From assembly GCF_000211475.1 (NCBI RefSeq), contig NC_015474.1, positions 62,001-126,000 on the forward strand: a DNA stretch of 64,000 nucleotides. Reading direction: 5' to 3'. Both the position numbers and the translations under genes were made by a program. The first letter of the stretch is position 1, and each line of letters opens with the position of its first letter. The stretch comes from Pyrococcus sp. NA2. GTDB taxonomy: Archaea; Methanobacteriota_B; Thermococci; Thermococcales; Thermococcaceae. Positions 3,647-5,081 of this stretch are shown here, in pieces. Below the pieces are notes generated by a model. It worked only from the letters and a program-made list of their open reading frames with translations, was not told the DNA's origin and did no database searches.

Positions 3647-4487
3647 TGTCGACATGAACGAATGCAACATCAACCTCAGGCAACATCTCAACCCTCCTCT
3701 TAACTTCCTCACTAACGTCATGAGCCTCTAAGAGCGTTAGATTCGGAGGAACCTCAATGTGAAGCTCGACATGAAGCTTGCTTCCTACGTAGTGGGCCCT
3801 AAGATCATGGACTCCCAGAACGTTTTTGACACTTAACGCGGCCTCTTCAATCTTCCTGTAAACTTCCGAAGGGGGGGATCTTCCCGTCAGATAATTGACA
3901 TTTTCAAGGATAATCTCAATCGCAACCTTAGCGATGAACAGGGAAACTATTACACCAGCAACACCGTCTCCCCACTTTATCCCCACTTTTTCAAAGAGAA
4001 GACCGACTAAAACAGCGATAGTGCTTAAAACATCACTCCTATGATGGTAAGCATCGGCTATCAGAATTGCATTATTAAGTCTTCTGCCAACAATTAGGGC
4101 ATACTGGGTCATCGCCTCCTTGGCAAATATCGAAAGGAGGGCAACTCCAATCATCATTGAGGTGACCTCTATGATGACTCCGTGTATAATTCTTTCAAGG
4201 GAATCCCTGAATATTTCATAGGCAACGATGAGCAGTAGCTCGCCCATGAAGAACGCGAAGAGTGGTTCAAACCTTGAGTGGCCAAATGGATGAGTACTAT
4301 CCGGAGGCCTCTTGGCTATTTTAACACCAACAAATCCTATAATGCTGGTAACAAGATCACTGAGAGAGTGAATTCCATCCGAAATCAGGGCAATGCTCGA
4401 TGACATAACACCAATGGTTATCTTCAAGACTGCAAGGAGGAGATTACCAACTATACTCACGATGATTGGTCTGTAAGCCTCATCCAT
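3624..4487 (-). CDS. cation diffusion facilitator (CDF) family metal transporter
   Basis: Proton-coupled exporter of divalent metals (Zn, Mn, Fe or Co) in the cytoplasmic membrane. Six transmembrane helices fill about residues 8-205. The two metal-site motifs are SDGIHSLSDLVTS in helix 2 and ADAYHHRSDVLST in helix 5 (HxxxD and DxxxD patterns), followed by a cytoplasmic ferredoxin-like domain (LHVELHIEVPPNLTLLEAHDVSEEV). ATG 4487 is chosen because GGGGTGAT precedes it by four bases and overlaps the alternative GTG at 4496. That ribosome site abuts the 3' flank of a box C/D RNA gene, so the mRNA probably shares a transcript with the two sRNAs just upstream. Confidence 0.9.
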   Translation of the reverse strand: MDEAYRPIIVSIVGNLLLAVLKITIGVMSSSIALISDGIHSLSDLVTSIIGFVGVKIAKRPPDSTHPFGHSRFEPLFAFFMGELLLIVAYEIFRDSLERIIHGVIIEVTSMMIGVALLSIFAKEAMTQYALIVGRRLNNAILIADAYHHRSDVLSTIAVLVGLLFEKVGIKWGDGVAGVIVSLFIAKVAIEIILENVNYLTGRSPPSEVYRKIEEAALSVKNVLGVHDLRAHYVGSKLHVELHIEVPPNLTLLEAHDVSEEVKRRVEMLPEVDVAFVHVDIKGLTSP

Positions 4488-4496
4488 TTTTATCAC

Positions 4497-4556
4497 CCCG
4501 GTCAGTCCGTCACTCCCTCGTCACACCTCAGCCTAGGCTGAAATCATCATCCCGAC
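4497..4556 (-). ncRNA. box C/D guide RNA (sRNA B)
   Basis: Read on the minus strand, this stretch has all four boxes with archaeal spacing: box C ATGATGA (4544-4550), 12-nt guide, D' CTGA (4528-4531), 3-nt spacer, C' GTGACGA (4518-4524, one change from consensus), 12-nt guide, D CTGA (4502-4505). Such RNAs bind L7Ae, Nop5 and fibrillarin and direct 2'-O-methylation opposite the fifth base upstream of D or D'. The D guide GGGAGUGACGGA is complementary over 10 bases to the universal 16S sequence CCGUCACUCC, pointing to U1406 (E. coli numbering); the base next to D does not pair. No target is recognised for the D' guide UUUCAGCCUAGG. The terminal stem is weak. Confidence 0.8.
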
Positions 4557-4568
4557 CTAATTCGAGTT

Positions 4569-4631
4569 TAAAGCTCAGAGATCACCTACCCTCATCACTC
4601 CTCAGTTCGCCCATCACTCATCATCGCCTTT
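4569..4631 (-). ncRNA. box C/D guide RNA (sRNA A)
   Basis: On the minus strand: box C ATGATGA (4618-4624), 12-nt guide, D' CTGA (4602-4605), 3-nt spacer, C' GTGATGA (4592-4598), 13-nt guide, D CTGA (4575-4578). All boxes match consensus and flanks AAAGG/GCTTT can form a short terminal stem. The D' guide GUGAUGGGCGAA can pair with the 23S A-loop helix (UUCGCCCAUUA, from memory of archaeal sequences, one G-U), predicting modification near position 2558. The D guide GGGUAGGUGAUCU pairs with the 16S 3' end GGAUCACCU over about 9 bases; this second target is tentative. It lies 18 bases from sRNA B in tandem and overlaps the promoter region of the JAMM gene on the other strand. Confidence 0.82.
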
Positions 4632-4658
4632 TTAAGTTTCTTTGCAAATCAAGATGAG

Positions 4659-5081
4659 ATGATGCTCAAACTACCTAAAAGCATTGTCGAAGAAATAGGG
4701 GAGAAAGCAAAGCATAGTGACATCGAGATCTGCGGTTTCATATTCGGAATCAAGGAAGGTGAAACTTTCATTGGAAAGAAGTTAACCTTCATTCGGAACA
4801 GACTGAACTCAAGCGTTGAATTTGAGATGGAGCCCGAGGAAATGCTAATTGCCCTAGAAGAAGCTGAAAGAAAGGGGTTGGAGGTTGTTGCCATATTCCA
4901 CTCCCACGTAAACTGCCCTCCACATCCAAGCGAGAAGGATATGAAGGGAATGAGGAACTGGAGAGTACCTTGGCTAATAGTGAGTTCAAGAGGAGAGATG
5001 AAAGCGTTCATACTTTCGTCAGAGGATGACATCAAAGAAGTTAAGATAGAGATCACACATCCCAGCCAAACTCCTCCCTGA
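4659..5081 (+). CDS. JAMM (MPN+) metalloprotease, archaeal desampylase-like
   Basis: Zinc isopeptidase of the JAB1/MPN/Mov34 fold, 140 residues. The motif is complete: FHSHVNCPPHPSEKDM gives HxH, then S and D with JAMM spacing, and an upstream glutamate lies in the EICGFIFG strand near residue 25. Archaeal single-domain members of this kind remove ubiquitin-like SAMP proteins from targets or process small sulfur-carrier proteins; that role is inferred from the family. Two ATGs (4659, 4662) are possible. A box A-like CTTTTTAAG at 4627-4635 would give a nearly leaderless mRNA. The gene's 3' end overlaps the convergent small gene at 5053 by 29 bases. Confidence 0.88.
   Translation: MMLKLPKSIVEEIGEKAKHSDIEICGFIFGIKEGETFIGKKLTFIRNRLNSSVEFEMEPEEMLIALEEAERKGLEVVAIFHSHVNCPPHPSEKDMKGMRNWRVPWLIVSSRGEMKAFILSSEDDIKEVKIEITHPSQTPP

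Follow-up and report, generated by a model that had tools for sequence, protein, structure and literature searches.

The minus strand of Pyrococcus sp. NA2 between positions 4497 and 4631 of the window, by which we mean the whole 64,000-nucleotide (nt) stretch analysed here (NC_015474.1, 62,001 to 126,000), holds two complete, co-oriented and adjacent box C/D small RNA (sRNA) genes. The upstream gene, RNA A (4573-4628), is a full-length match to the Rfam family sR1 (RF01152) at 64.5 bits against a gathering score of 45 (E=1.1e-13, Rfam cmscan), and RNA B (4500-4554) is a full-length match to sR60 (RF01309) at 81.9 bits against a gathering score of 50 (E=8.9e-19, Rfam cmscan). The pair lies between genes for a CDF transporter and a JAMM protein, both rightly named in a first-pass annotation of this DNA and carrying the Pfam domains Cation_efflux and ZT_dimer, and Prok-JAB, respectively. 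We are highly confident that the two genes are orthologues of Pyrococcus sR1 and sR60 with guides for 2′-O-methylation of 16S ribosomal RNA (rRNA).

Architecture of the two RNAs

Read 5′ to 3′ on the minus strand, sR1 opens with GGCG, followed by box C AUGAUGA (4618-4624, invariant in 37 distinct homologues), the D′ guide GUGAUGGGCGAA (4606-4617), box D′ CUGA (4602-4605), a GGA spacer, box C′ GUGAUGA (4592-4598), the D guide GGGUAGGUGAUCU (4579-4591) and box D CUGA (4575-4578), and closes on GC. Likewise, sR60 runs from CGGG through box C AUGAUGA (4544-4550), the D′ guide UUUCAGCCUAGG (4532-4543), box D′ CUGA (4528-4531), a GGU spacer, box C′ GUGACGA (4518-4524), the D guide GGGAGUGACGGA (4506-4517) and box D CUGA (4502-4505) to a terminal CC. 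Sequence reading and a pattern scan thus both give the archaeal box order C, D′, C′, D with guides of 10-14 nt. The strict pattern RTGAYGA-N10..14-CTGA-N2..6-RTGAYGA-N10..14-CTGA matches the 64-kb window at the sR1 and sR60 sites only, and across 200 Markov-shuffled windows it gives a mean of 0.0 matches. Single-strand folding yielded no significant structure, which is the expected outcome for C/D RNAs.

The first-pass annotation had described a tandem pair of canonical box C/D guide RNA genes with guides of 12, 13, 12 and 12 nt and D′-C′ spacers of 3 nt; direct reading of the minus strand and the Rfam matches bear this out to the nucleotide. It had also said that the reading would fail if related Pyrococcus genomes lacked the boxes; they are retained in 9/9 Pyrococcus-genus genomes. 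Its surmise that the pair may already be catalogued was correct: sR1 and sR60 are established families, and the find is in this respect an ordinary one with little that is new. RNA A shares the boxes and guide cores of sR1, itself found in 9/9 Pyrococcus-genus genomes, and is one nucleotide shorter than the model, its remaining differences being ordinary variation. RNA B has the D guide of sR60 unchanged, whereas its C′ box is GUGACGA rather than the UGAUGA-type consensus and its box C AUGAUGA rather than AUGAGGA. We found no open-access paper that names sR60.

The genome, one contig of 1,861,320 bases, contains other loci of this kind. At G000:C1:1744525-1744579 (minus strand; L063), a candidate second sR1 copy narrowly misses the sR1 cut-off; its guides differ from those of sR1, and it is a separate C/D sRNA. 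A further complete box C/D sRNA, resembling the sR44 consensus, is located outside the window, about 185 bases ahead of its first position (L065, G000:C1:61762-61816, minus strand).

Conservation and linkage in Thermococcaceae

Searching 94 Thermococcaceae genomes with the sR1 and sR60 models at E<=0.001 recovers sR60 in 91, of which 90 exceed the gathering score, and sR1 in 93, of which only eight do; a few of the weakest sR1 matches may be other C/D sRNAs. Beyond this family, all sR60 matches fall under the gathering score. In 67 of the 90 genomes with sR60 over the gathering score, no more than 60 nt separate it from an sR1 gene upstream on its own strand, and in 8 more sR1 lies within 3 kb; the two are unlinked in genera g2 and g4. 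The genes are 6-33 nt apart in Pyrococcus and, for the most part, 31-33 nt apart in Thermococcus.

Neither the guide cores nor the D boxes vary (100% identity) across 40 distinct sequences of sR60 and 37 of sR1, these counts covering homologues extracted by patterns that themselves fix parts of the guide cores. The invariant cores comprise UGAUGGGCGA of the sR1 D′ guide, GGUGAUC of the sR1 D guide, positions 4-11 of the sR60 D′ guide and positions 2-11 of the sR60 D guide. The D′-C′ spacers and the flanks vary, with 10 and 14 spacer variants in the two families. Of the 40 sR60 homologues, 37-40 retain the short terminal stem of the kink-turn, one of them with AA/TT for GG/CC, and terminal stem pairs are also kept in sR1, the third pair in only 19 of 37. 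Since the sequences are related, the conservation counts are not independent of one another. All four 16S targets described below are identical in the rRNA genes of 31/31 relatives, so that no guide-target covariation is available for use.

Predicted targets of the four guides in 16S rRNA

All four guides were slid along the 16S and 23S rRNA of the same genome, the modified nucleotide being taken as the partner of the fifth guide position counted back from D or D′; Escherichia coli numbers other than C1402 follow the universal rRNA sequence. The sR1 D′ guide forms 10 contiguous pairs, one of them G.U (11 counting the last base of box C), with the 16S segment CGCCCGUCACU, also read as ACCGCCCGUCACU, and position 5 falls on nt 1365, which is C1402; 0.02 of shuffled guides score as well against 16S, and we consider this assignment strong. 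The D guide of sR60 is matched to CCGUCACUCC by 10 contiguous Watson-Crick pairs, which puts its target at nt 1369 (U1406), as the first-pass annotation had proposed; shuffled guides equal this score in a fraction of 0.013, and the assignment is good. C1402 and U1406 sit on one strand of helix 44 (h44), four positions apart.

The D′ guide of sR60 makes 9 contiguous pairs in its Pyrococcus form at nt 862 (G902) in helix 27 (h27). Its Thermococcus form makes 11 pairs at the same site with a shuffle fraction of 0.013, so the target is shared, with the Pyrococcus guide deviating at the end next to D′; we rate this target, and the complementarity behind it, as moderate. In the Pyrococcus form, the D′ guide and D′ box together make a perfect 14-nt palindrome, UCAGCCUAGGCUGA (4528-4541, minus strand), which several Pyrococcus species share and Thermococcus lacks; the Thermococcus guide pairs better with 16S. 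Finally, the D guide of sR1 forms 8 contiguous pairs at nt 1491 (possibly C1533) in the 3′ tail, extending into the anti-Shine-Dalgarno sequence, and its Thermococcus counterpart forms 9 by hand count.

Published modification data bear directly on the C1402 site. The structure of the P. abyssi 30S subunit, combined with liquid chromatography-mass spectrometry (LC-MS), contains Cm1376, aligned to E. coli m4Cm1402, yeast Cm1639 and human Cm1703 (PMC7005279), and a 2024 review co-authored by C. Gaspin tabulates the P. abyssi Cm1402 equivalent under other numbering (PMC11542601). In our numbering check, in which the rows for C1402, U1406 and C1533 give the base preceding the one named, m6,2A1487/1488 lie at local nt 1475/1476, so that Cm1376 is placed at local nt 1364, where the sR1 D′ guide points. 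The same nucleotide is modified elsewhere by other means. Eukaryotic U43-type small nucleolar RNA (Arabidopsis AtU43, directed to 18S Cm1645; PMC11542601) shares with sR1 its target nucleotide and the logic of its ribonucleoprotein (RNP), and is a eukaryotic gene likened by these features rather than by sequence; bacterial RsmI/RsmH (m4Cm1402), in contrast to sR1, are stand-alone protein enzymes without a guide RNA.

We also scanned 84,980 species genomes for a C1402 guide between box motifs and sorted loci with printed titles by hand according to title. Among the matches listed, 37 of 41 archaeal loci place the guide at the exact 12-nt spacing, compared with 1 of 39 bacterial chance matches; the C1402 guide motif is widespread in Archaea. 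Most archaeal guides equivalent to 4606-4617 (minus strand; loci L097-L211) carry U, not C, opposite 16S G1405, making a G.U pair there.

Several results weigh against reading both RNAs as guides at all four sites. In the Pyrococcus form of the sR60 D′ guide, 0.10 of shuffles are as good against 16S, which is weak. The 8-pair match of the sR1 D guide is not significant by itself, being equalled by 0.37 of shuffles and hence at chance level; for this reason its assignment to C1533 draws on conservation and not on score, and we hold it as weak to moderate. A 2′-O-methyl group is listed in P. abyssi at 1 of the 4 predicted sites, the C1402 equivalent, no modification being listed at the equivalents of U1406, G902 and C1533 in the 3.2 Å structure and LC-MS data (PMC7005279). 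Lastly, the DNA 25 nt upstream of sR1 shows no clear TATA box.

Likely function, alternatives and genomic context

The likely function of the pair is ordinary RNA-guided 2′-O-methylation by L7Ae, Nop5 and fibrillarin. If expressed in this strain, and processed from a precursor of which the CDF leader may be part, each RNA would assemble with these proteins at its C/D and C′/D′ motifs, and each guide would direct methylation of the 16S nucleotide that pairs with its fifth position, counted back from D or D′, such that the pair would decorate the decoding centre of the 30S subunit. On 16S, the footprint of the sR1 D′ guide spans nt 1363-1373 and that of the sR60 D guide nt 1366-1375, with eight nucleotides in common. 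Because the two duplexes overlap, both RNPs cannot bind together and must act in turn.

An unlikely alternative is that sR1 and sR60 serve mainly as rRNA folding chaperones, with methylation secondary. In this view sR1 would link the base of h44 with the 16S 3′ tail, and sR60 would link h27 with h44. The elements so linked lie close to one another. Such a role has been proposed for double guides (PMC7994747), and it would be in keeping with the unreported modification at 3/4 sites in P. abyssi; Cm1402, however, is a reported modification, and the D-guide target through which sR1 would reach the 3′ tail is weakly supported. A related and rather speculative possibility is that the two RNAs work as a coordinated pair in folding the decoding centre. 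The RNPs, whose overlapping C1402 and U1406 sites are mutually exclusive, would then follow a set sequence, and one would also retain the 16S 3′ tail, with the anti-Shine-Dalgarno sequence in it, until maturation of the 30S subunit is complete.

The 3′ end of sR60 directly abuts the Shine-Dalgarno-like GGGGUGAU (4492-4499, minus strand), the putative ribosome-binding site of the CDF gene, 12 nt before its ATG at 4487, and excision of sR60 would consequently detach it from the CDF messenger RNA (mRNA). This arrangement is common to the genome we take to be P. yayanosii and is absent from those we take to be P. abyssi, which has a longer leader, and P. horikoshii, in which the downstream sequence differs. 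For T. kodakarensis, 11 potential C/D RNAs are placed within 5′ leaders, from which processing presumably frees them (PMC4247193). A TATA-like TTTTAAG precedes sR60 in Thermococcus, and a putative shared precursor in Pyrococcus together with putative separate promoters in Thermococcus would fit these observations. On the other side of the pair, a TATA-like TTTTTAAG at 4629-4636 (plus strand) adjoins the sR1 5′ end. The JAMM start codon follows at 4659, at a distance of about 26 nt, and the mRNA of this gene may therefore lack a leader.

It is very improbable that the pair works above all as part of the CDF leader, with L7Ae-bound kink-turns beside the Shine-Dalgarno site regulating CDF translation. 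Besides the junction with GGGGUGAU, 12 nt from the ATG, this would draw on the suggestion that C/D-like elements close to the 5′ ends of transcripts could in some cases regulate in cis or bind L7Ae (Jager et al. 2014, PMC4247193), yet the arrangement varies among the Pyrococcus loci read while the guides are invariant. Methylation of the 23S A-loop (about 2556) by RNA A, as the first-pass annotation had suggested, can be given almost no credence: the guide letters mostly agree with the complement of TTCACCCAT at 23S 2673, but the A-loop here is GTTCACCCATTAAAG (TTCACCC), the assumed TTCGCCC being absent, which leaves a C:A mismatch at guide position 4 adjoining the methylation position in Pyrococcus sp. 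NA2, the best contiguous score is 7.0 in 23S against 9.5 at 16S C1402, and it is C1402 methylation that is reported in P. abyssi (PMC7005279).

Read as guides for 2′-O-methylation of 16S rRNA, the two genes are of value as a useful annotation rather than a surprise. A specific guide RNA is now tied to the published Cm1376 of P. abyssi 16S rRNA, the counterpart of the near-universal Cm1402, and two neighbouring genes aim at 16S nucleotides four positions apart.
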